DNA of 54,684 nt from a bacterium HR37 (lineage in GTDB: Bacteria; Desulfobacterota_D; UBA1144; Nemesobacterales; CSP1-2), in the NCBI GenBank assembly GCA_002898375.1, contig BEIN01000016.1, positions 1 through 54,684 on the forward strand. Direction: 5' to 3'. Each line of letters opens with the position of its first letter. Position 1 is the stretch's first letter. A program made the position numbers and the translations under genes. The notes beneath the pieces are model-generated. The model searched no databases and was not told the DNA's origin. It worked only from the letters and a program-made list of their open reading frames with translations. Positions 26,061 to 50,489 of this stretch are shown piece after piece.

Positions 26061-26068
26061 GGTTGCGG

Positions 26069-26647
26069 ATGGGTATGGGGGTTGATTACTATTCCTTTAT
26101 ACTCGATAAGGTAAAGGAGATTACAGGAAAGATATCTCCAAAGGAATTTGAAAACTTTATAAACTTTATCCTTCAGGTCCCCCGCATATACATAATTGGA
26201 GCTGGTAGGTCAGGTCTTGTAGCAAGAGCCTTTGGTATGCGTCTTGTCCATCTTAGAAAGAAGGTCTTTATAGTGGGAGAAACTATAACCCCTGCCCTGA
26301 GAAAGGGAGATGGTTTAATCGCTGTTTCTGGCTCTGGGAAAACGAGTTGGGTTGTTGAGACTGCAAGGGTATCAAAGTCTCTTGGGGGAAAGGTTGCAAC
26401 GGTTACCTCCAATCCCGAATCTGATATTGCACGAATTGCAGATGTTTTGGTGGTTATAAGGTCAGAGGTTATACCCAGAAACGTTAACGATTACACAACA
26501 AGGGAGCTAATGGGTATTCCTCTTCCGCCTCTTGGCTCTCTTTTTGAGATATCTGCCCTTATCTTCTTTGAGGCATGTGTTCTTGAGTTGATGAGGCGTC
26601 TGGGTATAGAGGAGGAAGAGATGAAAAAGCTGCATGCAAACCTTTAG
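26069..26647 (+). CDS. hxlB: 6-phospho-3-hexuloisomerase (SIS domain)
   Basis: HxlB converts hexulose-6-phosphate to fructose-6-phosphate. The SIS fold shows YIIGAGRSGLVARAFGMRLVHL, ISxSGKT-like AVSGSGKTSWVVETA and TSNPESDIARIAD, all typical of this isomerase. I choose the ATG at 26069, six bases after AAGG at the end of hxlA; a TTG at 26063 is possible but badly placed. It is convergent with the wzt gene, with only two bases between the stop codons. Confidence 0.88.
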   Translation: MGMGVDYYSFILDKVKEITGKISPKEFENFINFILQVPRIYIIGAGRSGLVARAFGMRLVHLRKKVFIVGETITPALRKGDGLIAVSGSGKTSWVVETARVSKSLGGKVATVTSNPESDIARIADVLVVIRSEVIPRNVNDYTTRELMGIPLPPLGSLFEISALIFFEACVLELMRRLGIEEEEMKKLHANL

Positions 26648-30290: not shown

Positions 30291-31151
30291 TTATATCTCT
30301 TCGTAAGAGTATCCTTTAAGAAAGGGAAAACTTAAAGACCTTGCTTTTACAAGCTCAATTAGTTTTAAGTCCCAATTTAGATCGAATCTGCTTCTATGTG
30401 GGTTCTTAAAGACTATACCTGCACAGTCCTTTAGATAGTCCTCACCGGCATCTACACCCAAAAACCTGCATAATCTCTCCAGGTATTCTCTGGGGTTTGA
30501 TATAAAATCCTCATGTCTAAGCTCAAATACCTCTTCTTCCTTAAGACGTCTCTTTACCTCACTTACGGTCTCACAGAGAAGGAAGTAGTGTTCTATGGTT
30601 TCCTCTAGGCTCCAATTGTCTGATTTAATGAACATGGTGCTTATTGTATCGTAGGGATTCCTTACGACGTGTAAAAACCTAAGTTTTACATTAAAGGTTT
30701 TCCTTAGCTTATCCAGAAGAGAAGGTTTTGCACGTAACCTTAGGGTTGAGCTCCATCCCTTTTTATCCCCTATAACCCTTAGCCTCCTGAATCTTCCCTG
30801 CCACTGATTTGGGACGCTGTAGTTGTATTTGCCATGCTTCCCTCCGGATTTGGCAAAAACCATGGATCTCTCAAGTATCAGGTAGAGTATTTGCTCTTTT
30901 CTAAACCCCGCATATAGAAACTTTAGGGCATCCAGTTCCTGGGCAACTATAACATCTGGGTGAGCATCCAGTAAGGAGCCTATAAGGCTGTGGCCGCTTC
31001 TTGGATAACCTATAAACATGCAGTATGTTTCTATATCGCTAAAGGTATCTTTGTATCTGAATCCGTAGTATAAGGATTTGGGATACACCTTTAACAGTTC
31101 AAAAGAGGTTCTAAAAACTCTGCCTATATCTTTTGCTTTTACCGTATTCAT
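30291..31151 (-). CDS. Sulfotransferase (first of a pair)
   Basis: This 286-residue enzyme transfers sulfate from PAPS to a hydroxyl or amino group. The 5'-phosphosulfate loop is GYPRSGHSLIGSLLDAHP (48-65), and the 3'-phosphate site is HVVRNPYDTIST near residue 160. EVFELRHEDFISNPREYLERL is the familiar later segment. It is cytoplasmic. It lies 3 bp from another, only distantly similar sulfotransferase gene, and so may modify a different position of the same glycan. PAPS synthesis genes are not in the window. Confidence 0.88.
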   Translation of the reverse strand: MNTVKAKDIGRVFRTSFELLKVYPKSLYYGFRYKDTFSDIETYCMFIGYPRSGHSLIGSLLDAHPDVIVAQELDALKFLYAGFRKEQILYLILERSMVFAKSGGKHGKYNYSVPNQWQGRFRRLRVIGDKKGWSSTLRLRAKPSLLDKLRKTFNVKLRFLHVVRNPYDTISTMFIKSDNWSLEETIEHYFLLCETVSEVKRRLKEEEVFELRHEDFISNPREYLERLCRFLGVDAGEDYLKDCAGIVFKNPHRSRFDLNWDLKLIELVKARSLSFPFLKGYSYEEI

Positions 31152-31154
31152 TGC

Positions 31155-32018
31155 CTAAACTGACCATTCTTTAAAACTGTAACCTGTAAATTCCCTTAAG
31201 CGGTTTATATCGTCTCTTAGGTGATCTGCTATCTCCTCTCTTAGAACTCTATCAAGTACTGGTCTTTTTATTTTTGATGAAAACGGAAAGCAAAGTAGCT
31301 GTCCCATATGCCATCTTATAGGGGGTGGAAGCCTTTCTGCAACCGTTTCCCTGTAGAGCCTGTATAAAAACATCCCCACCCTGTTTTTTCTTCTCCTGTC
31401 GGAGGACCTGTGTTTTAGCTTAAAGAATCTGGGAGAGTAGAAAGAGTCATCCACGTTTAGAAACTTAAAGACCTCTTTTAGGGTTTGCAGGCGATTTCTA
31501 TACAGGTTTTCCTGCGTGATAATTAGGATGTTTGATGCCGGAAAGAACTGCAAAAACTGTTCCAGTTGCATGTAGTATCTGCTTCTATATATATATGAGC
31601 TGTTAAAGTCCTTTAGGGCTTCATTTATTGGTCTGCTCTCACGCCCCTCCGAGTATTCGTGTATGTAGTGTGATATTATCCTCTCAATAGGGTCCCTTAG
31701 GATGTAGATAAGCTTTGCATCAGGTATTACCGAGTGCATTCTCTCTGGCACCCCACTCCATACCGGGTAGTTTGTGTAGTTTGGAGAGCTCTCTCCGTGA
31801 ATTTTTTCACTGCCTCTAAAGTGTGCTCTGTACCAATCAATTCCCTTGTCCCAGTTTCGCTCTTTAATAAAGAAGTTTAGCTCTTTCTCCCTTGTCATCC
31901 TTATCTCTGGATGCAGGTTGAGATAGTAGTGTAGACTGGTTGTCCCACATTTCATTGCTCCTATAATAACAAGATTTGGAAGCCTTGTATCGTTTTTGTC
32001 CAACTTAAAGAAACCCAT
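31155..32018 (-). CDS. Sulfotransferase (second of the pair, heparan-type)
   Basis: This 287-residue protein has the PAPS loop GAMKCGTTSLHYYLNLHP (20-37) and the 3'-phosphate motif YILRDPIERIISHYIHEY. This is the pattern of the bacterial and animal heparan-sulfate sulfotransferase group (Sulfotransfer_1). Phosphate and sulfate contacts look intact. It starts 3 bp after the alkaline-phosphatase-superfamily gene. Together with the next gene it suggests that the exported product is sulfated. Confidence 0.9.
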   Translation of the reverse strand: MGFFKLDKNDTRLPNLVIIGAMKCGTTSLHYYLNLHPEIRMTREKELNFFIKERNWDKGIDWYRAHFRGSEKIHGESSPNYTNYPVWSGVPERMHSVIPDAKLIYILRDPIERIISHYIHEYSEGRESRPINEALKDFNSSYIYRSRYYMQLEQFLQFFPASNILIITQENLYRNRLQTLKEVFKFLNVDDSFYSPRFFKLKHRSSDRRRKNRVGMFLYRLYRETVAERLPPPIRWHMGQLLCFPFSSKIKRPVLDRVLREEIADHLRDDINRLREFTGYSFKEWSV

Positions 32019-35836: not shown

Positions 35837-37177
35837 TTATAACATAAATTCTTCTGGCTTACATAGGGAGATAACGGGTTTGAATTTTGCAGAACCCTCC
35901 CTTCTTATCTCTTCACAGTATTCGCACTCAATGTATGTGTTATTGCCCAAAAGGGCCTTAAGATCATTTATTACATCGTTTACAATCAAATCATAGTTTT
36001 TCCTATCTACAGTTAAGAGCCTTAGCTCAAACCTCCTTGGCTCGTGCTGAATCAGCTGATACTGTAAGACCTCTTTTCTCCCCTTAAAAACATCCCATAT
36101 TGCCCTGGGATGTATAAACTTTCCATCCGGCAGGAAAACAATATCTTCTACACGCCCATCAAGACTCGATAGGAGAGAAAGCGTACGACCGCATTTGCAC
36201 TCTACCAAATTTGAAAGAGATCCCAGATCCCCAAGGCGGTAGTTTATAAGAACCATTCCTCGGTTTACCAGATTGGAGATTACAACCTCTCCTTTCCCGT
36301 TTTTCTTCTTATCCTCGCCAACAATCCTTACATCGCAGAGGTCTTCATGAATGTGGAATCCGGTTCTTTCTTCACAGAAAAAACCTATCTTAAAGGCCTC
36401 GACCGCATTGTATCTGGATAAAACGGGTATGCCCAGGGTTTCTTCTATAAAGCGTCTTCCGTCCTCAGTCATTGAGTCACCACCATATAGCACTGCTTTA
36501 GGTAGATGCACTTTAAGCCCACGCAGGTAGACCAGTTTAAAGAACGTTTCAAGGTAGGAGCCATAACTCATTATAATCTCAGGACAAATCCGGTTAATTT
36601 GCTCAACTATCTTCTCTACGGGGTCTAGAACCGATACAACGTGCCTTTCAGGACGAAATGGTATGTAGGTTAATTGCCTGTACAGGTTCCATACCTTTCT
36701 CATCGTCGAGGTTGAGTAGCTGATGTAGAGCTCCCTGTATCGTCTGCCACAAAGCTTTACAAGAACCTGCCTTTCCCTTTCTCCAAAGGCGATATTGGCA
36801 AGCAGGGATCCTATGTCGTGGTAAACCGTTAGGGGCTTGCCACTTGTTCCGCTTGTAACAAAGGGTATCGGCTTTAGCTTATCCGGGGAATCTGGGGTAA
36901 AGAGATCCGGATTTCTACGCACGGTTTCCCTCTCTATAATGGGAAGGAGTTTAAGATCCTCTTTTGTTTTTATATCCTGTGGTCTTATCCCCAGCTCTTT
37001 AAAAAGCCTTCGGTAGTAGGGAACTCTATAAGCTGCGTATGCTATTGTCTTTCTTAAGTTTTCGTTAGAGAGCTCCGTAATCCTTTCTCTGGATAGATAA
37101 GGGATACGTCTTTGACCCTTAAGGTTGGAAAGAACCACCAGGTTTCCGTATAGCTTTTGTAGGGTATCTTTAACCAA
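35837..37177 (-). CDS. PaaK/CapK-type adenylate-forming enzyme
   Basis: This 446-residue protein belongs to the phenylacetate-CoA ligase-like group. It has the ATP loop TSGTSGKP (108-115), YGGDSMTEDGRRFIEETLG, and SRYNAVEAFKIGFFCEE with the usual acidic residue. The ending region MVLINYRLGDLGSL and GRVEDIVFLPDG match the C-terminal half. CapK-like members occur in capsule and exopolysaccharide clusters and are thought to activate an acid for transfer. The substrate here may be the product of the upstream small-molecule genes, which is inference. It overlaps the dehydrogenase gene ahead by 8 bp. Confidence 0.85.
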   Translation of the reverse strand: MVKDTLQKLYGNLVVLSNLKGQRRIPYLSRERITELSNENLRKTIAYAAYRVPYYRRLFKELGIRPQDIKTKEDLKLLPIIERETVRRNPDLFTPDSPDKLKPIPFVTSGTSGKPLTVYHDIGSLLANIAFGERERQVLVKLCGRRYRELYISYSTSTMRKVWNLYRQLTYIPFRPERHVVSVLDPVEKIVEQINRICPEIIMSYGSYLETFFKLVYLRGLKVHLPKAVLYGGDSMTEDGRRFIEETLGIPVLSRYNAVEAFKIGFFCEERTGFHIHEDLCDVRIVGEDKKKNGKGEVVISNLVNRGMVLINYRLGDLGSLSNLVECKCGRTLSLLSSLDGRVEDIVFLPDGKFIHPRAIWDVFKGRKEVLQYQLIQHEPRRFELRLLTVDRKNYDLIVNDVINDLKALLGNNTYIECEYCEEIRREGSAKFKPVISLCKPEEFML

Positions 37178-38423
37178 TCTTAATTTCCCCGTACCAGAGA
37201 TCTTCGGGACTTACAATTGAGCTTTCAAAGTACCCCAGAGACAACCTGGCTACAATACTACCGGGTATCCATCCACGGCGGTATAGCTCAAGCCCTGCTT
37301 CAAAGAGTCTTTTATATAATAACCTGGAGTTATTTACCTGCTTCCTTATCCTTTCGAGGTTCTTTAGTGTAAGGTGTAGTGCAATATCTCTAGGCAAGAG
37401 ATTTTCTTCCCTTGCCCTCTTAAGCAACCATAGTATACGTATCCCGATCTGTTTCTCTATAAAATCTGAAATCGTTTTCCTGTCAACAGAGGCAAACTCC
37501 ATTGTGCCACCAAGAGCCCCTCCGCAGTTTGTTACAAAGTCTGGCAAGCACAGTATGCCTTTTCTAAAGAGTAGCTCATCAGCTTCGTATGTAACCGGAT
37601 TGTTTGCTCCTGAACAGATAAACTTTGCCATTATTTTGTCAGCGTTATCCACACGTATTGTGTTATGTCTGGCACAGGGACACAGTATGTCAACTGGAAG
37701 CTCAAGCAACTCTGAGTTTTTAATCTGCTCTGCATCCTTATAAAGGGTTACCATATGGCTTCCTGCTTCCCTTGAAAGGGTTTTTAAACGTTTTATATCA
37801 AGCCCCTTTGGGTTAAATATTGCCCCTTTAGATGTCGATACAGCAACTATACGTGTATTTGCTCTGGCAAAGAGGTTTGCCAGCTCACCTCCTACTTTCC
37901 CAAAGCCTTCAATTGCTACTGAACAGTTTGATAGCTCTAGGTTCAGGAAGTCCGCTGTGGTTTTAGCTGCCGCAAATACCGAAAGTGCGGTGTAGTAGCC
38001 AGAGGGGATATCAAGGAGTTCCCGGTGTTTTACCGGAGCTCCAATTGATTTAAGCATGAACCTTATATCGTCGTTACTTGTGCCCATATCCGGAGCAGGA
38101 AAGTAAACCCCATTAAGGATTAAGGGTGCAATTGCCCTTCCAAACTCTTTAAGACGCTCTTTTCTTGCTTCTTGAGGGGCCTCAGGCTCGTACCTTATTC
38201 CTGCCTTTGCTCCTCCATGCGGTAAGCCAAGGAATCCATACTTTAGGGTCATTGAGCGTGCAAGAGAGCTAATCTCCTCTACATCAACGTCTGGTTGCAT
38301 ACGTAATCCCCCATGCGAGCGTCCACCAAAGGGTGAATCAATTGCAACGTATCCCAGTGTATCTGTTTCCTTCTTAACGGTTATTAGCATCTGTGGTATG
38401 TTTATTTCGTAATTAAACATCAT
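37170..38423 (-). CDS. Glu/Leu/Phe/Val dehydrogenase-family protein
   Basis: This 417-residue protein resembles amino-acid dehydrogenases that aminate 2-oxo acids with ammonia and NAD(P)H. The active-site pattern SHGGLRMQPDVDVEEISSLA, MTLKYGFLGLPHGGAKAGI (Lys61 and Lys73) and PAPDMGTS (Asp112) is kept, and VAIEGFGKVGGELANLF is the Rossmann loop. The usual GGGKGGI reads GGAKAGI. It lies between a methyltransferase gene and a ligase gene with overlaps on both sides, so it probably acts on a special 2-oxo acid rather than on glutamate. The exact substrate is unknown. Confidence 0.85.
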   Translation of the reverse strand: MMFNYEINIPQMLITVKKETDTLGYVAIDSPFGGRSHGGLRMQPDVDVEEISSLARSMTLKYGFLGLPHGGAKAGIRYEPEAPQEARKERLKEFGRAIAPLILNGVYFPAPDMGTSNDDIRFMLKSIGAPVKHRELLDIPSGYYTALSVFAAAKTTADFLNLELSNCSVAIEGFGKVGGELANLFARANTRIVAVSTSKGAIFNPKGLDIKRLKTLSREAGSHMVTLYKDAEQIKNSELLELPVDILCPCARHNTIRVDNADKIMAKFICSGANNPVTYEADELLFRKGILCLPDFVTNCGGALGGTMEFASVDRKTISDFIEKQIGIRILWLLKRAREENLLPRDIALHLTLKNLERIRKQVNNSRLLYKRLFEAGLELYRRGWIPGSIVARLSLGYFESSIVSPEDLWYGEIKIG

Positions 38424-39268
38424 TGTTTTATAGCTTTAATACCTGTAAAGTAACCTGTAAGCAACCCTGTAGGCAAGCTTGAGAGCCTCTCAAATGATAT
38501 TAAAAACTCTATAAGCCTCTGTTGTGTTCCCTCGGATATCTTTTTTGAAACTGCTTCAACCAACCTGATAAGGATCCTTGGAAAGTGCATAATGGTTTTT
38601 ACCTCAACCACTTTAAATCCCAGTTCCTCAAGGAGTTGTCTGAAGCGGCGGGCACTTAGGGTAGCTCCAACACGGTATGGAACGAGTCCGGTGGAGTGCA
38701 AAAACCAAAAGGGCAGTATGTTTCTTATTGTGATTACAGGGTTTAGGGGATTATCAAGGGTTATAAGCAGTAGCCCTCCTTTTTTAAGCACCCTGTAGAG
38801 CTCTCTTAGGCTGATAACTATGTCTTCAACAGTGTCAAAGTGGTCAAGTGTTGAGTTGGAAACTACAACATCAAAAGAGCCATCAAGGAAGGGAATCTTT
38901 CTTACATCGCCTACAACTACGTTTATATCCGGATGGTTTAGCTTTGCTCTCCCAGCGGTAACGGAGGATACATCCATACCAAAAACGCTTTCAGCACTTT
39001 CCCTCAAAAGTGGGTATAGCCCTTTACCAAGTGATTCATCAAAGAGGTCAGTTTTAAGGACTCTTAGAGCTGTTTTACCCGCTGGTAGCCATCTGGAAAA
39101 AGCCAGGTTGTTTACAGCATCGCTGTAGCTTCGCCAAAAGGTCTTTGGTTTGGTTTCTTTTAAGCTTTTTGCAACTGCATCCCAGTAAGAGGGGTTCATC
39201 TGTTTAAACAGGGCTTGCATCTTGTGTATAGGTGGGCCTAGCTTAATCCTGTCTTGCAAACAATCCAA
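38420..39268 (-). CDS. SAM-dependent methyltransferase (class I)
   Basis: This 282-residue protein has the class I features VFGMDVSSVTAG, VVVGDVRKIPFLDGSFDVVVSNSTLDHF and LRELYRVLKKGGLLLITLDNP. The first glycine-rich motif is degenerate, reading TDLFDESLGKG. The target could be a sugar or the acid made by this operon. It overlaps the radical SAM gene by 26 bp and the dehydrogenase gene by 4 bp. Confidence 0.82.
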   Translation of the reverse strand: MDCLQDRIKLGPPIHKMQALFKQMNPSYWDAVAKSLKETKPKTFWRSYSDAVNNLAFSRWLPAGKTALRVLKTDLFDESLGKGLYPLLRESAESVFGMDVSSVTAGRAKLNHPDINVVVGDVRKIPFLDGSFDVVVSNSTLDHFDTVEDIVISLRELYRVLKKGGLLLITLDNPLNPVITIRNILPFWFLHSTGLVPYRVGATLSARRFRQLLEELGFKVVEVKTIMHFPRILIRLVEAVSKKISEGTQQRLIEFLISFERLSSLPTGLLTGYFTGIKAIKQ

Positions 39269-40823
39269 GTGCCTTTGCTATTTTGGTCTCTATTGGAAAA
39301 CGTACGTTCATGTGTTTTATTCTGTATCTGGCTATTGGGTAGTAGAGCTTTCCTAGTGCAGCTACTATGGGGTTTGTTTTCTTATAGGGGCTTACAAAGT
39401 GCCCTTTGCCTAAAAACATAAGCGGAAAATCAAGGCCTTCTACCAGCCTCTTTGTCTCTGGAGGAATCCAAGGGGCATCTCTGGCAACGTGTCGGAAGTT
39501 AAAGCTTGCCCAATCCTCAAGCCTTTCGGGTTCTTTTAGCCCGTGCTGTAGGGCAACGTTATAGAGTTCTGTTCCCGGATAGGGGGTGTATATGTTAAAC
39601 CTTGCCACAGCCTTTGGGTTTTCATCCACCAGGCGTTCGGCCAGGCGGATGCTTTGAGCAAGCTCATCTGGGGTTTCAGTGGGAAGGCCCATCATAAACA
39701 GGTACCAAGGTACAATGGGGTAGGGAATCAGCTTCCGGCTGGCTTCAATCACCTCTTCTATGTAGATGTCCTTGTTTATTAGGTCCAGTATACGTTGTGA
39801 GCCTGATTCTATACCTATCGTAAGGCGTTTAACCCCGGCCCTGACCATGAGATCTAGAAAATCCCTGTCCATTTTGCATATGGTATCGGCACGTATTTGA
39901 AGTTTACCGATTGTGATGTTTAAATTGGCACGGACGATCTCTTCCAGGATACCGTATGCACGTTTCATATCTATGAAGAAGTGATCATCCGTAAAGTTAA
40001 AACCCCGTATGTTGTAGTCGCGAATGATCCTCTTTAAGTGCTCTACTACGGTTTTTGGTTTCATTGCCCTCCATTTTCTCTTGTGAAGAACTGGGTCCCA
40101 GCAGAAACTGCATCGGAATGTACAGCCACGGCTAGAGTTAAAGCTAAAGGTATCCTCTCCAAAGAGCCTTCGTCTGTAGTGGTTCATGTTAACCAGATGA
40201 TAGGAAAGAGGAGGCTGTTCATCAAGGTTTACAAATGGACGTTCTCCGGTCCATCTTATTACGTAGTTATTTCTGGAGGTTACACTAACTGGCTCCTTCG
40301 CTTCATAGGTTCCAAGAACACGAAGCTCTTTTTTATTTTGCTGTATTTCTTTTAAATCCAAAGAGGGTTTGTACTCTTTGTAGCATATCCCTTTTACGTT
40401 CTTAAGGGGGGATTTTGATTCGATTGCTTTAACAAGCTCTTTAAAGGTTTCCTCTCCTTCCCCCACCACAACTATATCCACATAAGGGTTTTCCAGTGTT
40501 TGCTGGGGTAGAAGGCTTGCATGAATCCCACCCCACACTATTGGAACATCCGGGTGGTGCTCTCTAAAGAGTTTGGATGCTTCCAGGGCACGGAGTATCT
40601 GTGGACCCGTCATGGAGGTTACACCAAAGCATATCGGCTTGTACCTTAGTGCCTCTTTAAACTCCCTTTCCCACTGGGGATTTGCAAACTGGTCTATTAT
40701 CTTTACCTTGTATCCCTCTAAATCCAGGGGTGTAGCTGGACAGAGAAGGCTAAGCGGAACTTCAACCCTTCTTTGTGCCTGCCATCCTCTTCTGGGAGCG
40801 GGATTAAACAACAAAACATCCAT
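39243..40823 (-). CDS. B12-binding-domain radical SAM enzyme
   Basis: This 526-residue enzyme has an N-terminal cobalamin-binding-type domain (about 1-140, with VWGGIHASLLPQQTL and VVVGEGEETFKEL) and a radical SAM core. The [4Fe-4S] motif CTFRCSFC gives Cys234, Cys238 and Cys241. Members methylate unreactive carbons, rearrange skeletons or form C-C bonds in natural product and lipid pathways. FTDDHFFIDMKRAYGI and RLTIGIESGSQRIL are typical of this class. Placement directly after the condensing enzyme suggests it modifies that product. The reaction is unknown. Confidence 0.87.
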   Translation of the reverse strand: MDVLLFNPAPRRGWQAQRRVEVPLSLLCPATPLDLEGYKVKIIDQFANPQWEREFKEALRYKPICFGVTSMTGPQILRALEASKLFREHHPDVPIVWGGIHASLLPQQTLENPYVDIVVVGEGEETFKELVKAIESKSPLKNVKGICYKEYKPSLDLKEIQQNKKELRVLGTYEAKEPVSVTSRNNYVIRWTGERPFVNLDEQPPLSYHLVNMNHYRRRLFGEDTFSFNSSRGCTFRCSFCWDPVLHKRKWRAMKPKTVVEHLKRIIRDYNIRGFNFTDDHFFIDMKRAYGILEEIVRANLNITIGKLQIRADTICKMDRDFLDLMVRAGVKRLTIGIESGSQRILDLINKDIYIEEVIEASRKLIPYPIVPWYLFMMGLPTETPDELAQSIRLAERLVDENPKAVARFNIYTPYPGTELYNVALQHGLKEPERLEDWASFNFRHVARDAPWIPPETKRLVEGLDFPLMFLGKGHFVSPYKKTNPIVAALGKLYYPIARYRIKHMNVRFPIETKIAKALGLFARQD

Positions 40824-40840
40824 AAGAGCCTCCTTGTTGC

Positions 40841-41785
40841 TCAGGTGTTACTTACCTCTCTAAAAGAAGCAATCAACCCCGGGTCAAAGGCTTCAAAAAG
40901 CTCAAGCTTTTCCAGATGACCTGGGGACTTATGGGAGAAGACAAAATCACCTATAACGGGAGCCAGTTTGTATACGGTGATACCGCTTTCTTCCTCAACT
41001 GTTTTTGATAACTCCTTTAGTTTTTCCAGTTTGATTCCCGTGCTAAATCCCTTTAGATAGAGGTTTAAAGCGACCTGTTCGAGGGAAGCGTTTCCTGCCC
41101 TATCACCCAAACCGTTTACAGTTACATCAAGCCCATCTGCTCCGGAGTAGACTGCAGCCAGTGAGTTTGCGGTTGCAAGACCCAGATCATTGTGTGCATG
41201 GAAGAATAGTTTAATGTGACCTAGCTCGTCTTTTATGTGCTTAATGAGGCTATAAACTGTAAAGGGATCTGAGGTTCCGTTGGTATCGTATATGGTTACC
41301 CTGCTTGCACCGTTTTTCACTGCCTCCTTTGCTATCTCTAAGAGAAAGGAAGGCTCTGTTTGTGTGGAGTTTGGAAAGCCCACCCCAATATCATGGTTGT
41401 AGCTTAGTGCGTATTTTAGTGCCTCTACAAGAAGCCTGATCTTGGTCTTCTTATCATAGGGCTTTCTCTTTAGAGAAACTGGCATAAGAAGATCAAACCT
41501 ATCAAGATACCTGCTTGCTTCCTCTATCTCCTCCTTACAGGTAGGGTTTTGAGAGTATATAAGACCTGAGGTTTTTAATCCAAGATTGTACTGTGTTTTA
41601 AGCACCTTTACGAACTCAAGGTCTTTTAAAACCCTGCTTGGGGCAACCACTTCGGCCTCTGAAACACCAGCACTGTCAAGAGATGTTGCTATCCTTAGCC
41701 TTTGCTGAATCGAGAAGTCCACACCCGGGACATCCATTCCCTCACGAAGTGTTGAATCTCTTATCGTTACGTTTCTGCCACTCAT
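40841..41785 (-). CDS. Short isopropylmalate/homocitrate-synthase-like condensing enzyme (DRE-TIM)
   Basis: This 314-residue DRE-TIM metallolyase has RDSTLREG (9-16, with metal Asp10), HAHNDLG (196-202, with metal His196 and His198) and TVNGLGDRAGNASLEQV (222-238). The last motif is diagnostic of the isopropylmalate/citramalate/homocitrate synthase branch rather than HMG-CoA lyase. These enzymes condense acetyl-CoA or a similar acyl-CoA with a 2-oxo acid. It is shorter than NifV/AksA types and has no C-terminal regulatory domain. It overlaps the PLP enzyme gene by 4 bp. Its role in leucine synthesis is unlikely, given the neighbours. Confidence 0.85.
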   Translation of the reverse strand: MSGRNVTIRDSTLREGMDVPGVDFSIQQRLRIATSLDSAGVSEAEVVAPSRVLKDLEFVKVLKTQYNLGLKTSGLIYSQNPTCKEEIEEASRYLDRFDLLMPVSLKRKPYDKKTKIRLLVEALKYALSYNHDIGVGFPNSTQTEPSFLLEIAKEAVKNGASRVTIYDTNGTSDPFTVYSLIKHIKDELGHIKLFFHAHNDLGLATANSLAAVYSGADGLDVTVNGLGDRAGNASLEQVALNLYLKGFSTGIKLEKLKELSKTVEEESGITVYKLAPVIGDFVFSHKSPGHLEKLELFEAFDPGLIASFREVSNT

Positions 41786-42996
41786 AGCTTACCTGCTCTT
41801 TGCCTTATCTCCTTGCTTATGGTGTATACATCAGATAGATTAGATACCCTAAATTCAGCCTCTGCCTTTCCATCTGCCTCACTTATACCGCTTGTTAAGC
41901 AGCAAAGTACCCTGCTACCTTTCTCTATTGTACTCCTATCTATTTCTTTTAGGACACCTGCCAGAGCTATCAAACCCGTTTTCTCTATCACCTCGTTGTT
42001 CCTTATGGTTATATCTATACCATTCTCAGAAAACAACTCTAGTATACCCTTTCCTTCAAAGTTTTTCTCAAGGAGTTCTTTAAACTCAAGGTGGTTTACT
42101 GTGGTTATATCTCCTCCTGTTCTTACCAGTATGGTCTCAAGTTCATTGTACGTTCCATAGGTATAGGGCTTAACATCATACATTATATCTGTAAGCAGTT
42201 CTCCACTTTCAGGTGGGCTTTCCTCAAGAGATACCCCTTTGTTTTTCCATGCTCTATACATCGGGCAGTTGTTTTCCTGTTGGACTCCAAGAAACCTCGG
42301 TATCTTTTTGATCCCCTTACCCAAATTTAACAGAACCCTGTATATACCAATTGGGCCAAAGGCTGCACTTATTGTCTGCGTTATCCAGTCAAATCCTTTG
42401 TTCTCCATCAAGTATTCAAGTATAAATAGACCTCTGAACATGGATGCCTCGTAACGCCAGCTAATCTCAGGTATGTGCCTAAATCCGTTTATCTTGGCAA
42501 ACAAAAGGGCTGCTCCTTTTACAATTTCGGCCTTTTCCACCTTTATAAGGTGTGCTCTTTGGGATTCGAATACCTTGCTTTTTAAAAGGTTTATATTTCT
42601 CTCAGGAATGAAGAAAAAGGTTTCAATCCCTGCCTTCTGTCCGTATTCCGTTAGGGCTGTACCTGTGTTTCCACCTGACTCAAACACCACCTCCCTAGAG
42701 CCTTCTGCTAGGCATTTTGCTATGCTAACACATCCATCTATTGATTTTAGAGTCTTTGTATGCATTAGGGAAGTTTCATCAAGTATATATATATCCACTC
42801 CTTTGTAGTTAAGAATGTAGAATATCCTTGCTCCTTCTCTTATACTGGTTTGCTTTAAGTACTCCCTGTACTCCTCTTTACCGTAATAAACAGATTTTAA
42901 AATGTTTCTGTATCTGAGAACTATGCTTGACTCGGGAGCGTAGCTGGTATCTATGAACCTGTAAAGATCTTTGCCGGTTATCTCAAAACTTTTCAT
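41782..42996 (-). CDS. PLP fold-type II enzyme (threonine/cysteine synthase-like)
   Basis: This 404-residue protein has the tryptophan-synthase-beta fold. The PLP lysine is probably Lys84 in HTKTLKSIDG. SGGNTGTA (107-114) binds the substrate carboxylate, and SAAFGPIGIYRVL is a glycine-poor version of the phosphate loop. Such enzymes perform beta-elimination or replacement on amino acids. The N-terminal 60 residues have no close counterpart that I recognise. It overlaps the condensing-enzyme gene by 4 bp and the nitroreductase gene by 14 bp. I cannot name the reaction. Confidence 0.78.
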   Translation of the reverse strand: MKSFEITGKDLYRFIDTSYAPESSIVLRYRNILKSVYYGKEEYREYLKQTSIREGARIFYILNYKGVDIYILDETSLMHTKTLKSIDGCVSIAKCLAEGSREVVFESGGNTGTALTEYGQKAGIETFFFIPERNINLLKSKVFESQRAHLIKVEKAEIVKGAALLFAKINGFRHIPEISWRYEASMFRGLFILEYLMENKGFDWITQTISAAFGPIGIYRVLLNLGKGIKKIPRFLGVQQENNCPMYRAWKNKGVSLEESPPESGELLTDIMYDVKPYTYGTYNELETILVRTGGDITTVNHLEFKELLEKNFEGKGILELFSENGIDITIRNNEVIEKTGLIALAGVLKEIDRSTIEKGSRVLCCLTSGISEADGKAEAEFRVSNLSDVYTISKEIRQRAGKL

Positions 42997-43525
42997 AATG
43001 TACTATCTCTTCTTGTGGTTTTAGCTTTTTTTCATCCGGGATTTCATCCGGATAGCCAAGCGGGATTATGGTAACCGGCTTGTAGTCTCCAGGTATGGAG
43101 AGGATCCCTTTTATCTCTTCCTCTAGTTCGGGTTTTTCCCTATTGTATGCAGATAGGTAGACGCTTCCTAGACCCCTGCTGTATGCGGCAAGCATTATCG
43201 TGGCTGCTGCCAGAACCCCGTTTTCAATCTCTCTCCCGTATGATTTCTCGATGTTAACGCAGACCACTATAAGTACTGGGGCGTCTTCTATAAAATCGGC
43301 CCTGTAGGCCCTTTTCTCAGGGGGGCAGTGCCTGTTTTTTACCTCTGCTATTAGCTTTTTGGTTACATTATCCCGAACAACTATAAAATGCCAGGGTTGC
43401 CCGTTCATTGAGGAAGGGGTGTACCTGGCAAGATCAAGTATCTGGCCAATAGCTGAGTCCGGCACATCTGTTGCCTTGTACTTTCTGATGGACCTTCTTC
43501 CTTTAATTGCATTATCCAGATTCAC
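42983..43525 (-). CDS. Nitroreductase-family flavoprotein
   Basis: This 180-residue FMN protein has the family start IKGRRSIRKYKATDVPDSAI, the flavin contacts SSMNGQPWHFIVV, and GLGSVYLSAY near the C-terminus, with PLGYPDE. Members reduce quinones, nitro groups or double bonds, or act as oxidases/dehydrogenases in peptide and natural product pathways. Within this operon it may oxidise or reduce the small-molecule intermediate. Confidence 0.88.
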   Translation of the reverse strand: MNLDNAIKGRRSIRKYKATDVPDSAIGQILDLARYTPSSMNGQPWHFIVVRDNVTKKLIAEVKNRHCPPEKRAYRADFIEDAPVLIVVCVNIEKSYGREIENGVLAAATIMLAAYSRGLGSVYLSAYNREKPELEEEIKGILSIPGDYKPVTIIPLGYPDEIPDEKKLKPQEEIVHYEKF

Positions 43526-43558: not shown

Positions 43559-45142
43559 TCAATAAGGTTTATCTATGACGTATGGAAGTTTTTGTCCCTC
43601 GGTAACTTTTGGGTAATCCCTTACAACCTGTATTGTGTGTGCCTGTTCCCAAAAAAGAGATGCTATCTTGGTACTAACTTCCCTTTCTTTAAGTTTTCCT
43701 AGCACCGTATTTACCACCTCCCTTTCGCTGATAGAGGGGATATCGGGGTTTATTGCTATGGTTATCCTACCCACACCGCTTTCATCTTGGGTTTTCCATA
43801 TTTGATAATCGTTGGGACTTCCACCTGCTCTCTCTACAATCTCTCCCACTATCTCATAGAGGTCTGAGGTAAGGACACTTATTCCCTCCTCGGTTAGCTT
43901 ATAGTTGCTTCTTATGTTTGAGAGATGAACGTTCATTCCAAGGCTTCCAAAAAGGCAATTGCACTCCCTTTTATACAGGTTCCCTATATCTCCAAGCTCC
44001 GTGTTTAGAAGAACCTTTCCAGCGTTTGTAGAAAGGGATGTAAAGAGAAAGGAATCCACCTGCTGTTCTTTTGTTTTAAAATTTTTTGGTATAACTGCAA
44101 GTCTATCCATATAAAGGTGAATATCATCAGGGTGGTCATTGTACAAACAGGAAGTTCCCATCATACCGGCCTCTGTGGAGGCGTATCTACAGATGACATT
44201 TACCCCAGAGCGTTTAATAAACCTGTATCTTGCCTCCGTAAGAGGTTCTCCCCCGGTTGATATAACGCAACCACCAAGGTCCAACCCCTCCTCCAGTGCC
44301 TTTTGAACAACGTAGACAGCGGAGCTTGTAAAGGTTCTAAGAACAACGGTTCCTCTTCTGCATTTCCTCTTCCTGTCTTCCATCCACTTTGCTACCCTCA
44401 GTGCGCTATCTATTTCGGTAATCTGTGGTCTTGGGATACTTAGTCCAAGAATCCTGCAGCTCCAAACAAGGTATTCAATAGCTACTTTATGAAGGATTCG
44501 GTTAAAAATCCCCGGGCTCTTTATATGAGAAAACCACTTTTCAGGGGGTTTTTGAAACTTTATATGAAGTAGCAGGTTGTGTATACCTGATATACTTGGT
44601 AACCCTGGCAACCAGAGAGCCACGGGGGAATCCACTAACCCATGTGCCTCGTATGAGAGGAGTTCATCTTGAGCTTCTTCTTCAAGGAATCTCCAGTCGT
44701 ATGCAACCCGTGTTACCCTTGAACTGCTTCCGCTGGTTTTTCCGTATATGCTTTTGCCCATAAGAAAGGGGTTATCAAAGTCTTCTTGTTGCGTTTCTAT
44801 GGTTAGCCCCCTTCTGAATACAGGGGTTTTACCCTTTAATTCATCAAAGGTTATGTATACACCCTCGTCTCTAAGCAGCACGAGTGTGTCCTCTATACCC
44901 CTGATTTTTACACTTCCTTCAAGGTCGCTGTACTCACAGCCAGCATGAAGTAGCAGTTTTCTGTAGGGGCTTTGTTTGTTTTCGTATATAAGTTTCTTGA
45001 CAGAGGCAAGAAAAAGCTCCTCTCTTTTCTCCATGCGTCTCTTTATATTCTCTCTTGCCTGCTTTGGGGTAACTGGGTTTTTTATAAATCCCTGAAGCCC
45101 CCAGGCAATTGTAGCTATCTGCCTAAGCCTGGCCAGTCTCAT
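43559..45142 (-). CDS. PaaK-like adenylate-forming enzyme, long divergent form
   Basis: This 527-residue protein has the ATP loop KTSGSSSRVTR (135-145), a counterpart of TSGTTGKP. VISTGGEPLTEARYRFIKRSG and CRYASTEAGMMGTSC follow, with the acidic residue of the adenylate site, then NTELGDIGNL. The family makes acyl-adenylates and often CoA thioesters. It is only distantly similar to the second ligase gene at 35837-37177, so two different acids, or an acid and a second step, may be activated. It overlaps the THI5-like gene by 20 bp. Confidence 0.78.
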   Translation of the reverse strand: MRLARLRQIATIAWGLQGFIKNPVTPKQARENIKRRMEKREELFLASVKKLIYENKQSPYRKLLLHAGCEYSDLEGSVKIRGIEDTLVLLRDEGVYITFDELKGKTPVFRRGLTIETQQEDFDNPFLMGKSIYGKTSGSSSRVTRVAYDWRFLEEEAQDELLSYEAHGLVDSPVALWLPGLPSISGIHNLLLHIKFQKPPEKWFSHIKSPGIFNRILHKVAIEYLVWSCRILGLSIPRPQITEIDSALRVAKWMEDRKRKCRRGTVVLRTFTSSAVYVVQKALEEGLDLGGCVISTGGEPLTEARYRFIKRSGVNVICRYASTEAGMMGTSCLYNDHPDDIHLYMDRLAVIPKNFKTKEQQVDSFLFTSLSTNAGKVLLNTELGDIGNLYKRECNCLFGSLGMNVHLSNIRSNYKLTEEGISVLTSDLYEIVGEIVERAGGSPNDYQIWKTQDESGVGRITIAINPDIPSISEREVVNTVLGKLKEREVSTKIASLFWEQAHTIQVVRDYPKVTEGQKLPYVIDKPY

Positions 45143-45989
45143 GTTTTTGTCTGGCTTTATCCAGGAAGCTCAATTCGATAAAGTCTTTTGGTATCTCATC
45201 TATGTAACCAAGCCTCTTCATAAGGGAGAGAACCTCTTCCATTGCACCTTTGTTCCTTATGGCATCTACGTTTGGTCTGTTAACATCAAGGGCTTTTCGT
45301 ATGAATTCTGCGTTTACACCTATATAGCGGGATGAGATCTGTGAGGCTTCTTCGGGATACTGGTGGGTAAAAGAAGCTCCTAGTAAGAATGCGTTAACCA
45401 ATCTCTGAACCAGCTCAGGTTCTTTTTCCACAATCTCAGTGGTTGTGGTTAAGGAACACCCCGGGGCTCCACCCCATACATCCCCTGTTCTTTTTACAAC
45501 ATTTCCAACACCCAGAGACTCCATCATGGTTGCAAATGGCTCTACCATTGAAGCTGCATCTGCTCCTTTACCAAAAAGTGAGATTATAGCTCCGTCTCCT
45601 GATGGCATCCTTATTAGCTCAGCATCCTGCCATCCCAGTTTCTCAATTAAACTCATTGCTGTTAGGTCTTTCATTCCTCCACGTTGTGGTACCGAAACCT
45701 TCTTTACCTCTTGGGGAGCTATACCCTCTCTTATAACCATAGCTGCTTCCTCAAAGCCCGAACCGCAGATCAAAACGAGTTTTGGGTTTTTTGAAACAGC
45801 AACCCTTGTCCACGGTATTACAGCAAATTGGATCTCACCGGTTCTAAACTTATGAGGGACCATCCATGCTGTGGGTTCAACGCTTAGGTAAACCTCTATG
45901 CCCTCTTCTCTAAAAAAACCCTTTTCATATGAAACGTAAGCTGGAATCTGACAAACACCTCTTAAAACCGAAAAAGTTACCCTTTGCAT
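45123..45989 (-). CDS. NMT1/THI5-like periplasmic-binding-fold protein without signal peptide
   Basis: This 288-residue protein has the ABC solute-binding fold of the NMT1/SsuA group: IPAYVSYEKGFFREEGIEVYL, GEIQFAVIPW, LTAMSLIEKLGW and GKGADAASMVEPFATMM. It begins directly at MQRVTFSVLRG with no signal peptide or lipobox, so it should stay in the cytoplasm. No permease or ATPase of that transporter type is nearby. THI5 (pyrimidine synthesis) and MqnA/MqnD (menaquinone) show that this fold can be an enzyme. An AAAGGAGG site precedes the ATG, one base after the methyltransferase stop. Confidence 0.75.
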   Translation of the reverse strand: MQRVTFSVLRGVCQIPAYVSYEKGFFREEGIEVYLSVEPTAWMVPHKFRTGEIQFAVIPWTRVAVSKNPKLVLICGSGFEEAAMVIREGIAPQEVKKVSVPQRGGMKDLTAMSLIEKLGWQDAELIRMPSGDGAIISLFGKGADAASMVEPFATMMESLGVGNVVKRTGDVWGGAPGCSLTTTTEIVEKEPELVQRLVNAFLLGASFTHQYPEEASQISSRYIGVNAEFIRKALDVNRPNVDAIRNKGAMEEVLSLMKRLGYIDEIPKDFIELSFLDKARQKHETGQA

Positions 45990-46766
45990 CTAGCTACCTC
46001 CTTTCTGTGCTAAAATTATAAAGTTCCTTCCAAGTATGCTTGCAATCCGGGGAGAGAGACGTTCAAGGTAAACAGAGATATAGGGTGGTGGAAGCAACCT
46101 GTTTCCCACTCTTAAGAAGAAGTTGTGGAAACTTACACTTAGCACTTTAAATCCAATCTTTTTAAGGCTATATACTGTGTGGTCCGGATCGTAGGTTCTG
46201 TAGAAGTCTCCCCTGCAACCCCTGACAAGGTTTCTTGCCCTGGTTATAAAACCGTTTGTCTTTATAAAAAGGCTTTTTTCATTCGTAAATGTGGCTATCA
46301 TGAATCCCTCTTTACGTAAAACCCTGTATGCTTCTTTAAAAAAGTCTTCGGGTGATTGAAGACAACCCATTAAGGAGACTGCTGTAATACCGTCCAGTGT
46401 GTTATCACCAAGAGGTAAATTCTCTGCCCTGGCTGTGATAAAGTATATTTGCTCTCCTGTTCCATAGTCTTTTGATAGAATCCTTTTTCTTGCAAATCCT
46501 GTCATGTTGATATCGTGGTCTATACCGATTACATATATGCCCATCTGGGATAGCTTTTCTGCTGTGTGCCCGGATCCACATCCAATATCAGCCCAGAGTT
46601 CTTCAGGGGTGGTTATACTCAGGCAGATTTGCTCTACAGTTCTTGTGTTCTGCCAGAATGTAAGGTGTTTGTTTCTGTACTCTTTGTTTTCGTATATAGC
46701 ACTCCACTCGGGGGGATCGAATTTGTCTCTTGGTTTTGGTGTGCGGGTGGGAGGGGATTTTATCAT
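45990..46766 (-). CDS. SAM-dependent methyltransferase (class I)
   Basis: This 258-residue protein has the SAM motif ADIGCGSGHTAEKL (59-72), IGIDHDINM, and ARAENLPLGDNTLDGITAVSLMGCL with EAYRVLRKEGFMIATFTN. It resembles UbiE/small-molecule methyltransferases. The target is unknown. It overlaps the small membrane protein gene by 4 bp. Confidence 0.87.
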   Translation of the reverse strand: MIKSPPTRTPKPRDKFDPPEWSAIYENKEYRNKHLTFWQNTRTVEQICLSITTPEELWADIGCGSGHTAEKLSQMGIYVIGIDHDINMTGFARKRILSKDYGTGEQIYFITARAENLPLGDNTLDGITAVSLMGCLQSPEDFFKEAYRVLRKEGFMIATFTNEKSLFIKTNGFITRARNLVRGCRGDFYRTYDPDHTVYSLKKIGFKVLSVSFHNFFLRVGNRLLPPPYISVYLERLSPRIASILGRNFIILAQKGGS

Positions 46767-47095
46767 GCGGTAAGTTTATCCTTGATCTCAACAATCCTGT
46801 TGTATATCCAGCCTATTAATGCCCCTGCTATTGTTCCCACGATAAAGCCGTAGGCAAATCCTATGATGCTTCCCAAAAATGAAACCCTGTAGCCAATAAA
46901 GAATTGGCTTAGCAGTTGAAGGTGGGGGCCCACTACGTACTTGCCATCAGGGGTTATGTGTCCACCCTTTAGGATAAGCCAGTTTGTTGCAATAAATACG
47001 GTAAGCCCAAGCAGTATGCCAAGGGTAAATCCAAGCATTTTTGCATTCAGCATGGCAACAGCAGTTAAGAGTTTTTTGTCATTGTAGTTTTCCAT
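46763..47095 (-). CDS. Small membrane protein related to the flavoprotein C-terminus
   Basis: This 110-residue protein has two to three membrane segments (about 18-38 and 58-98). The segment QFFIGYRVSFLGSIIGFAYGFIVG matches, by eye, QYFIGYSVTPEGVAIGTIHSFLWGF in the C-terminal domain of the flavoprotein encoded just before it. It is thus a stand-alone copy of that membrane module. No known domain name comes to mind. It may pair with the flavoprotein in the membrane. Confidence 0.75.
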   Translation of the reverse strand: MENYNDKKLLTAVAMLNAKMLGFTLGILLGLTVFIATNWLILKGGHITPDGKYVVGPHLQLLSQFFIGYRVSFLGSIIGFAYGFIVGTIAGALIGWIYNRIVEIKDKLTA

Positions 47096-47107: not shown

Positions 47108-48979
47108 CTATATCTGGTCTAGTAAATCTTTAAGGGACATGGATTCTGCCCTTCTTCTGGCTTTGTAAATTAAAAACGCTAAAATCAGGTTTCTTACGTA
47201 AGCAAACAACCATCCCCACATAAAGCCCCACAGAAAGCTATGGATGGTTCCTATCGCTACACCTTCTGGGGTTACGGAATAACCGATAAAGTACTGGTTG
47301 ATAAGTTGAAACATGCGGATTGCCTCTTTGTCTCCTTTTATAAGTAGTATCAGGTTTAGTATGCAGAAAAACAGGCTTGCAACCATGCCCAGTGCTACTG
47401 CAAAAGCAAGCTTATCCAGCTTTGCAAAGGCCTTTACAATGATTTCATCAGGTATCGTTGCTTTATCTTTTTCCGTAATTCGGGTTGGAACCTTTGGTTG
47501 TGTTGATGCAAGAAGCTTTATATCGGTTTGCTCTCTGCCCTCTACCGTTTCTTCAAGGTATTCCTTTTCCTCGTTTACCTGCCACAGGTCATAGTTTGCG
47601 CCCATTATGTTTCTGGCTGCCAAGATAGCTGTAAGCATTGAATGGTCTTGGTTATTGTATTTGTGCATACCGTTTCGTCCCACAAGCTGCAGGTTCTCTA
47701 TACTGCTTAGGAACCGACGTATGGTGCTTAGAGACTCCTTATATGTGGAGTCATATACGGGATAAGCCTTTGGCATTCTAAAAACCGTTCCATCTTCTAC
47801 CTCAGATGCATCTATTAAGCCCAGCATCTCTAGCTCCTTCTGCCCAAGCCTAATAAGCTCTTCATCAGGCATCGTCCATAGGGAATCTCCTTCAAAACAA
47901 AAGTACTCAAGCCCCAGGCAGGTTTTGTTCTGATCTGGAACCATATAGGGACTCCAGTTTTTAAAGTTCTGAACCCTTCCCACTTTGACTTCGGGGTCAT
48001 GTATGTAAATCCAGTTATCGGGAAACACCTCTTTTCTGTTAACTATAAGCACCACCGTAAGAAAATCCCTGTACTTGAGATTGCTCGCTGCTATTGTTAC
48101 CTCTTCGGGTGGTGAGGGCTCAAGTTTGTGTATAAGCTCCCTAATTGGCATGCTGCTTATAAAGTGTGTTCCACCTATGGTCTTTATCATTCCGTTTAGG
48201 TTTACCTCAACCGAACTAACCCTGCTGTCCTTAAGCATTATCCTCTGAACATCTGCTCCAAGAAAAACGGTTCCTCCCATCTCCTCTACCCTTTTTGCCA
48301 TCTTTTCCCACATCATACCAGGCCCAAGCTTTGGATAGTAAAAGGAATCAATAAGAGTTTTTATCACATCTGCGTTTCTGGATTTTTTATGGGCAAAAAG
48401 GGTGTTTTTAATGGCTGTTAGGAGTGAGAGTCCTTTTATTCTCTGGGCAGCCCATTCAGCCCTTATCTCGCTACATGGGATTCCCCAGACCTTTTCTGTG
48501 TATGTTTTAAAGAAAATCCTGTAAAGACGTTTACCGAATCTGTTGGATACCCACTGCTCAAATGTTTCCTCGGGTTTTTCAGGAAATAGCTGGGCCTTTA
48601 GGTAGCTTAAGAGTATCAACATGCTGTTTAAAATACCAAGACCAAACAGCGCGTTGGATGTGCGAAATGGGTAGAAAAAAAACCTCTTGTTATAGTAGAT
48701 TCTGGAAAGACGACGGCACCTTAGTAGATCCTCACCTAGGATTTCGTGCCATAGCTCTTCTATCAGCTTAACTTTTGTGAAGAAGCGGTGTCCTCCTATG
48801 TCAAAGTGGTATCCCTTGTAGTTAACCGTTCGTGCAAGTCCCCCAACTGTATTGTCCTTCTCAAGAACAAGTGCTTTCCATCCGGCTTTACAGAGTTCGT
48901 ATGCAGCGGTAAGACCAGCAGGACCTCCACCTATTATAACAACCCTTCTATCATCATGGCCTCTTAAGGATCCCTGCAT
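47108..48979 (-). CDS. FAD-dependent oxidoreductase with C-terminal membrane domain
   Basis: This 623-residue protein has the FAD-binding start VVIIGGGPAGLTAAYELCKAG (13-33), EKDNTVGGLARTV and the FDIGGHRFFTKV motif. The last is typical of the protoporphyrinogen-oxidase/UDP-galactopyranose-mutase-like proteins of glycan clusters. The domain ends near 490. A separate C-terminal region (about 515-610) has two to three membrane helices and is shared with the next gene. It may oxidise or isomerise a lipid-linked sugar at the membrane. It is the first gene of the 22-kb operon, with a weak ribosome site. Confidence 0.85.
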   Translation of the reverse strand: MQGSLRGHDDRRVVIIGGGPAGLTAAYELCKAGWKALVLEKDNTVGGLARTVNYKGYHFDIGGHRFFTKVKLIEELWHEILGEDLLRCRRLSRIYYNKRFFFYPFRTSNALFGLGILNSMLILLSYLKAQLFPEKPEETFEQWVSNRFGKRLYRIFFKTYTEKVWGIPCSEIRAEWAAQRIKGLSLLTAIKNTLFAHKKSRNADVIKTLIDSFYYPKLGPGMMWEKMAKRVEEMGGTVFLGADVQRIMLKDSRVSSVEVNLNGMIKTIGGTHFISSMPIRELIHKLEPSPPEEVTIAASNLKYRDFLTVVLIVNRKEVFPDNWIYIHDPEVKVGRVQNFKNWSPYMVPDQNKTCLGLEYFCFEGDSLWTMPDEELIRLGQKELEMLGLIDASEVEDGTVFRMPKAYPVYDSTYKESLSTIRRFLSSIENLQLVGRNGMHKYNNQDHSMLTAILAARNIMGANYDLWQVNEEKEYLEETVEGREQTDIKLLASTQPKVPTRITEKDKATIPDEIIVKAFAKLDKLAFAVALGMVASLFFCILNLILLIKGDKEAIRMFQLINQYFIGYSVTPEGVAIGTIHSFLWGFMWGWLFAYVRNLILAFLIYKARRRAESMSLKDLLDQI

Positions 48980-49556: not shown

Positions 49557-50489
49557 CTAAGTGGTTAGAAGATCCAAAACCCTCTTTGCAACGCTCTCTG
49601 CTTTCCTATCATCTGACATGACGGTATCAATTACAACAGGTTCAATCCCGAGGGACTCTATCCTTAAAGACTCAGCAGCATCTTTTTCGTCTATCACCAT
49701 CTTATCTAGAAAGTCTCTATATAACCTGGCTATCTCGGTTGAAGAAACCTCAAGGCCAACTCCCCTCATCAATCTGTCTGCAGGTCCTTTAAGAGGTGCT
49801 CCTCCAACAAGGGGGCTTATGGCTATTATCTTTGCATCCGTTCTAATAAGGGCCTCTTTGATCCCCTTAACTTGAAGGATAGGTCCTATGCTTATTATCG
49901 GATTGCTTGGACAAACTACAATACCCCGTGCTTGTTCTATGGTCTCAATAACCTCCGGGGCAGGTTTTGCCCTCTCTATACCTTTTACAAATACCCCTTT
50001 TACCCTTGGTTTCATTGACCTCTTTACAAGGTATTCCTGAAAGTGCATATCCCCTTCTTCAGTTACTATCCATGTCTCAACGTCTTCATCGGTCATTGGA
50101 AGAATTTTTATGTTCTCTTGAATCCTAAAGGCCTTTACCAACCTCTCGGTTATCTCTGAGGGGGTAAGTCCTTTTTGTCTTAGGTAGGTTCGGTATATAT
50201 GGGTTGCCATATCCCTATCACCCAGTCTAAACCATGACTCAAGACCGAACCTCTCGAGTGCATGCAGACAGTGGAATGTATCCCCTTTGATCCCCCATCC
50301 TTTCTCTTTATCAACGGTGTCTGAAAGCCAGTAGATTACTATATCTATATCCGGTGATATTCTCAGTCCATAAATTGTTATGTCATCTCCGGTGTTTACT
50401 ATCACCGTAAGTGCTTCATCCTTTATGACACGGGAAAGTCCCCTTAGAAACTTAGCTGCTCCGACTCCTCCACCAAGGGCTACAATCAT
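49557..50489 (-). CDS. cofD: 2-phospho-L-lactate transferase CofD (coenzyme F420 synthesis)
   Basis: CofD joins the lactyl- or enolpyruvyl-phosphate side chain to the deazaflavin FO, an essential step to F420. The start MIVALGGGVGAAKFLRGLSRV, then VNTGDDITIYGLRISPDIDI, LGDRDMATHIYRT and VVCPSNPIISIGPIL, are all hallmark segments. The length of 310 residues is normal. No other F420 gene is in the window, so they must be elsewhere. It is the clearest metabolic clue that this bacterium uses F420. Confidence 0.92.
   Translation of the reverse strand: MIVALGGGVGAAKFLRGLSRVIKDEALTVIVNTGDDITIYGLRISPDIDIVIYWLSDTVDKEKGWGIKGDTFHCLHALERFGLESWFRLGDRDMATHIYRTYLRQKGLTPSEITERLVKAFRIQENIKILPMTDEDVETWIVTEEGDMHFQEYLVKRSMKPRVKGVFVKGIERAKPAPEVIETIEQARGIVVCPSNPIISIGPILQVKGIKEALIRTDAKIIAISPLVGGAPLKGPADRLMRGVGLEVSSTEIARLYRDFLDKMVIDEKDAAESLRIESLGIEPVVIDTVMSDDRKAESVAKRVLDLLTT

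Follow-up and report, generated by a model that had tools for sequence, protein, structure and literature searches.

Which product is made by a tight run of minus-strand genes that sets a pyridoxal 5'-phosphate (PLP) enzyme beside a relative of isopropylmalate synthase (IPMS)? The run lies in contig BEIN01000016.1 of bacterium HR37 (assembly GCA_002898375.1), whose full 54,684 nucleotides we call the window. A preliminary description, made by a model from the letters alone, had proposed IPMS-type chain lengthening of a 2-oxo acid, amination, addition of carbon groups and activation by a ligase. Our analysis leads to a related but different answer: the genes probably form part of a horizontally spread module whose product, an unusual amino acid or 2-oxo acid, would be activated by an adenylating enzyme. 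We take its core to comprise four enzymes, namely a flavoenzyme of nitroreductase type, a PLP enzyme resembling threonine and cysteate synthases, a DRE-TIM enzyme with atypical residues and an amino-acid dehydrogenase of the ELFV family, encoded in the window as follows.

42983-43525, minus strand: nitroreductase-family flavoenzyme, core gene 1 (PF00881, 104 bits), with a homologue directly upstream of the PLP gene in 10 of 10 loci
41782-42996, minus strand: fold-type II PLP enzyme, threonine-synthase/cysteate-synthase-like, core gene 2 (PF00291, 44.6 bits)
40841-41785, minus strand: DRE-TIM (HMGL-like) enzyme of 314 amino acids (aa), core gene 3 (PF00682, 180 bits; residues D18, P138, F297 and H290)
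37170-38423, minus strand: ELFV amino-acid dehydrogenase, core gene 4 where the contig permits (PF00208, 140 bits; PF02812, 68 bits)

The operon and the spread of its core

The open reading frame listing of the window confirms every minus-strand gene of the preliminary description, with its coordinates, strand and close packing, as parts of one operon. The first two names had been interchanged, however: 41782-42996 matches the PALP family only and is the PLP enzyme, and 40841-41785 is the condensing-type, HMGL-like enzyme. These two genes overlap by 4 bp. The HMGL gene is separated by 17 bp from a gene for a B12-binding radical S-adenosylmethionine (SAM) protein, whose junction with the methyltransferase gene has a 26 bp overlap and a TTG start; the methyltransferase and dehydrogenase genes share 4 bp, and the dehydrogenase and ligase (35837-37177) genes 8 bp. 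The operon also reaches further upstream than had been described. Ahead of the nitroreductase gene, which shares 14 bp with the PLP gene and is part of the conserved core, stand a methyltransferase gene (45990-46766), then a gene for an NMT1-like binding protein (45123-45989) and then one for a distant PaaK-like protein (43559-45142).

Homologues of the PLP enzyme occur in one relative from the same family (G001), two Syntrophaceae, two Planctomycetes (G063 and G064) and four more genomes of the phylum that contains the Syntrophaceae. With the window these give ten loci, spread over three groups: the phylum the window comes from, the phylum that includes the Syntrophaceae, and the Planctomycetes. 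The genes for the nitroreductase, the PLP enzyme and the DRE-TIM enzyme are adjacent, on one strand and in identical order at all ten, so their grouping is more than chance. Pairwise identities of the three proteins are correlated (r = 0.91-0.94), a level that no more than 2 of 5000 permutations reached. The module is rare: 2 of 58 genomes carry it in the window's own phylum, and 6 of 395 and 1 of 392 in two other phyla sampled. This rare and patchy distribution, together with the correlated divergence and the fixed order, fits the horizontal spread of one unit, with the core gene set travelling as a whole between distantly related bacteria. In the genome-contig scan a single HMGL protein found no locus, and a two-sequence PLP alignment found four. 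A search for the PLP enzyme on plasmids gave no match.

An atypical DRE-TIM enzyme

Membership of the third core enzyme in the DRE-TIM superfamily holds (PF00682, 180 bits against a cut-off of 29; the metal-binding HxH motif and the TLRxG arginine in 10 of 10), and its best curated models are IPMS and NifV, at 210-219 bits. The protein ends at 314 aa and has no LeuA C-terminal regulatory domain. LeuA, of 528 aa, and a CimA-like protein, of 538 aa, are encoded in addition by the same genome. When the DRE-TIM domains of the genomes studied are placed in one tree, which has long branches, the ten module enzymes form a clade of their own (97/97), apart from LeuA and CimA. The enzyme is thus not nested within LeuA or CimA, nor does it take the place of a missing LeuA, and the earlier view of a dedicated unit stands. 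Ordinary leucine or isoleucine synthesis is rejected on these grounds. The HMGL, PALP and ELFV families are all at home in primary metabolism, which could suggest that ordinary branched-chain amino-acid metabolism was duplicated inside a glycan locus; the separate clade, the changed catalytic residues and the presence in the genome of separate LeuA and CimA genes and of an ELFV gene of true glutamate dehydrogenase (GDH) type make this very improbable.

The catalytic changes are fixed in all ten module enzymes. R-E-G-x-D replaces the R-D-G-x-Q of the controls, and the site of the CoA-contacting Gln (Q93 of methylthioalkylmalate synthase, MAMS) is occupied by Asp (D18), against Gln in 13 of the 13 controls that cover it. 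A GFP motif places Pro (P138) where 14 of 14 LeuA/CimA-type controls have the catalytic Glu, a call that is robust because the flanking columns align gap-free. GLGDR stands where controls have GxGER, Phe (F297) where they have Tyr, and four residues are deleted following the conserved general-base His. That His itself (H290) is retained in all 24 sequences aligned.

In MAMS, where the general base is His388, no activity could be detected for the mutants E227A, E227D, Q93A and Q93N, and some was left in E227Q and Y399F (PMC11532901). Because the Glu and Gln needed there are replaced in 10 of 10 module enzymes, lengthening with acetyl-CoA is doubtful, and the IPMS-type mechanism of the preliminary description was probably too quick a reading. 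Judged from sequence, the module enzymes have the metal and enolate machinery and lack the residues that serve acetyl-CoA.

It is nevertheless conceivable, though we think it unlikely, that the enzyme is an acetyl-CoA-dependent synthase in the manner of LeuA, homocitrate synthase or phosphonomethylmalate synthase, elongating a 2-oxo acid that an aconitase would isomerize and the dehydrogenase aminate. IPMS and NifV are the nearest models, the general-base His is kept in all 24 sequences, the amino-acid dehydrogenase is linked, and Tyr to Phe by itself is tolerated in MAMS (PMC11532901); a dedicated aconitase following HMGL in the Planctomycetes keeps the model alive. The replaced Glu and Gln, whose change to Ala or Asp (Glu) and to Ala or Asn (Gln) left MAMS without detectable activity, argue against it, and no gene of isopropylmalate dehydrogenase or isocitrate dehydrogenase type was seen near any locus.

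The changes fixed across the family (Pro in place of Glu, Asp in place of Gln, GDR in place of GER and the loss of four residues after the general-base His) may instead point to an aldolase or lyase that performs enolate chemistry without acetyl-CoA, with Asp18 as a new base and a hydroxylated or branched amino acid as product. DRE-TIM aldolases such as BphI and DmpG have a catalytic His at the Gln position, which offers a lead in this direction. Models of 4-hydroxy-2-oxovalerate aldolase score only 93-104 bits, however, against 219 for IPMS, and no gene for an aldehyde-forming partner was seen, so that we regard this reading, too, with doubt. It is tempting to go further and to speculate, tentatively and at less than even odds, that the enzyme represents a new reaction class on the LeuA scaffold, having dropped the residues of the acetyl-CoA Claisen reaction and making or breaking a C-C bond through a rewired base, Asp18; the natural-product pathway around it would likewise be new, as would the amino or oxo acid that this pathway yields.

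The PLP enzyme

The second core enzyme belongs to the PALP fold-type II family (PF00291, 44.6 against 35 bits), with which its PLP lysine and fold agree. All ten PLP enzymes match the models of threonine synthase and cysteate synthase, in every case far below cut-off; that of the window scores 43.9 bits for threonine synthase (cut-off 303) and 34.5 bits for cysteate synthase (TIGR03844, cut-off 324.9). The AlphaFold model (pLDDT, the program's confidence score, 81.8) has threonine synthases as its top PDB matches and the cysteate synthase CapA2 (9k3c) at rank 9. K84 is invariant in the family and corresponds in the alignment to the PLP lysine of threonine synthase. Another invariant residue, R181, lines up with a threonine synthase Arg that we take to bind the substrate phosphate, a lead for a phosphorylated substrate. 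The profiles and the predicted fold place the enzyme in the threonine/cysteate synthase branch.

The cysteate synthase matches raise the possibility of a sulfonate route, by analogy with phosphonate antibiotics: the PLP enzyme would convert O-phosphoserine and sulfite to cysteate, the dehydrogenase would yield sulfopyruvate and the DRE-TIM enzyme would elongate it. CapA2 among the best fold matches and an SsuA-like binding protein in the window are consistent with this. Threonine synthase scores equally well or better, however, every score is far below the curated cut-offs and no sulfite-related gene was seen nearby, and we consider such a route improbable.

The dehydrogenase and a Planctomycete aconitase

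The protein encoded at 37170-38423 scores above cut-off for both ELFV domains and retains the two catalytic lysines and the catalytic Asp that characterize this family. In glutamate dehydrogenase a Lys and a Ser are ligands of the glutamate side chain. In 4 of 4 module dehydrogenases the Lys is His or Cys and the Ser is Gly, and these ligand residues mark the module protein as an amino-acid dehydrogenase for a substrate other than glutamate. At least one ordinary full-length ELFV gene lies outside the module in each of the eight genomes examined; the genome of the window has one of true-GDH type. Linkage to the core is seen in 7 of 10 loci (the window, G001, L015, L026, L027 and the Planctomycetes G063 and G064), which supports the part in the route that had been given to an amino-acid dehydrogenase. 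The gene lies within the core run in the window, L015, L026 and L027; in G001 it is on contig L046, past the end of a radical SAM gene whose start closes contig L008.

Downstream of the core in the Planctomycetes come an adenylation-thiolation-thioesterase (A-T-TE) protein and then an aconitase (L016), with the ELFV dehydrogenase after the aconitase (L047 and L048). Because these genomes have separate LeuC-like and AcnA-like genes, the module-linked aconitase is an extra and dedicated one. This aconitase paralogue (L048:10131-12815 and L016:6023-7491) carries the motifs SCTSTSN and GFGCATC; the usual aconitase motifs are SCTNTSN and GYGCTTC. In L048 the dehydrogenase gene overlaps that of the aconitase paralogue by 17 bp. 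A dehydrogenase and a dedicated aconitase are as expected of a 2-oxo-acid elongation route.

A proposed route

From the observed gene content, order, conservation, correlated divergence and residue changes we infer each reaction of the module and the order of steps. The PLP enzyme may carry out a replacement or elimination on a phosphorylated hydroxy-amino acid, such as O-phosphoserine or O-phosphohomoserine, and the dehydrogenase would convert an amino acid to the corresponding 2-oxo acid or back. The DRE-TIM enzyme would act at the 2-oxo carbon, where it would form or cleave a C-C bond by catalysis that differs from that of acetyl-CoA synthases, and the flavoenzyme could adjust a double bond. 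In some hosts the aconitase paralogue may isomerize the product, and in some the B12-binding radical SAM or other SAM enzymes may methylate or cyclize it. Activation would fall to an adenylating enzyme, the PaaK-like ligase in the window and the A-T-TE protein in the Planctomycetes; the recurrence of ligase genes beside the core counts in favor of this step.

Several observations weigh against this proposal of a biosynthetic module that has spread horizontally. None of the loci read shows a decarboxylating dehydrogenase, so that enzymes of the host would have to complete an elongation cycle. L014 has no ELFV dehydrogenase in the stretch read, and contigs L024 and L025 stop before one could show. 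Three contig joins are themselves inferred, L016/L047 from 13 shared end bases within the aconitase gene, L008/L046 (G001) from 22 shared end bases and L017/L048 solely from homology to L016/L047. Gene context varies, with glycan genes at several loci and tripartite ATP-independent periplasmic (TRAP) transporters at L027, and the substrates and products named above are candidates.

Our literature searches for clusters in which a nitroreductase accompanies isopropylmalate synthase or threonine synthase found no paper with all of these terms, and a broader one showed nothing of relevance among the titles listed. The module is a compact, mobile set of enzymes, with no described product found, in hard-to-culture phyla. 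It also offers a test of how the chemistry of the LeuA fold can change: two residues on which activity depends in a characterized relative are replaced throughout the family, yet the fixed order and the same partners are retained.

Ligases, accessory enzymes and neighboring genes

The remaining genes discussed here are these.

43559-45142, minus strand: distant PaaK-like adenylate-forming ligase of 527 aa, recurrent near the core (no Pfam match; NF041878, 28 bits)
45123-45989, minus strand: NMT1/SsuA-like binding protein without an obvious signal peptide (PF13379, PF09084 and TIGR01728, below cut-off)
39243-40823, minus strand: B12-binding radical SAM protein, BchE-like, accessory (PF02310 and PF04055)
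38420-39268, minus strand: Class I SAM methyltransferase, accessory (PF08241)
35837-37177, minus strand: PaaK/FlxY-like ligase (NCBIfam PaaK/FlxY, about 105 bits, below cut-offs)

The ligase at 35837-37177, the activator proposed earlier, has no match in open reading frame comparisons of the other loci. The recurrent one is the upstream 527-aa protein, with homologues near the core in L014, L015, L025 and L046. Its relation to PaaK is weak: hhalign to 35837-37177 gives a probability of 7.7%, with a common C-terminal motif, and its AlphaFold model (pLDDT 50.8) is too low in confidence for use of the fold. L014 has a second PaaK-like gene, in two frames (L014:12171-13790). The Planctomycete A-T-TE protein, which resembles a nonribosomal peptide synthetase, directly follows the DRE-TIM gene (L016:3407-5905); L017:2913-3816 holds only the start of the A domain.

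The B12-binding radical SAM protein (165.9 bits for the BchE model, below its cut-off of 481) is found in the window, G001 (L008/L046), L015 and L027, and homologues of the methyltransferase in L015, L026, L027 and L046. Both had been assigned to the right families, but each is absent from some loci and is accessory. Of the route to a non-standard amino acid as first proposed, the dedicated biosynthetic unit is supported; the chain-lengthening mechanism and the named ligase are not.

The NMT1/THI5-like protein at 45123-45989 has no adjacent ATP-binding cassette (ABC) permease or ATPase in the window and is 70% identical to its G001 homologue (L046:3235-4140); similar proteins in L015 and L025 are accompanied by full ABC transporters. 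A flavin-dependent amine-oxidase/UDP-galactopyranose mutase-like protein with a C-terminal membrane stretch (47108-48979) and a small membrane protein (46763-47095) form a pair that recurs ahead of the core genes in L008 and L014 (60-66% identity). Elsewhere in the window we noted by eye two adjoining sulfotransferase-like genes inside a glycosyltransferase/ABC-2 export locus (30291-32018), adjoining genes resembling 3-hexulose-6-phosphate synthase and 6-phospho-3-hexuloisomerase (25404-26647), and a CofD-like gene (F420 biosynthesis; 49557-50489) adjoining an IscA/HesB-like gene.

Comparison with known systems

Threonine and cysteate synthases are the best sequence and fold neighbors of the PLP enzyme and share its PLP lysine and SxGNTG motif, but identity over the fold match is about 15-20% and scores are 30-45 bits against cut-offs above 160. 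Thermotoga-type glutamate dehydrogenase has both domains and the catalytic Lys/Lys/Asp in common with the module dehydrogenase; it holds the Lys and Ser side-chain ligands where the module protein has His or Cys and Gly. The window radical SAM protein shares domain order and the CxxxCxxC motif with BchE-type B12 enzymes, but unlike BchE proper it scores 166 bits against 481 and is an accessory of some loci only.

Pathways of the FR-900098/phosphinothricin type pair an HMGL enzyme with an aconitase. The Planctomycete version of the module follows the same logic, a synthase with a dedicated aconitase after it; unlike those pathways, the module has an extra PLP enzyme, nitroreductase and dehydrogenase, and no phosphoenolpyruvate mutase was recognized in the loci read. 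Finally, the module DRE-TIM enzyme shares with isopropylmalate, homocitrate and methylthioalkylmalate synthases the TIM-barrel catalytic domain, the TLRxG Arg and acidic metal ligand, the HxH metal motif, the general-base His and the NGLGxRxGN motif. It differs from them in having no C-terminal domain, in four substitutions (Pro for Glu, Asp for Gln, Phe for Tyr and GDR for GER) and in the four-residue deletion.

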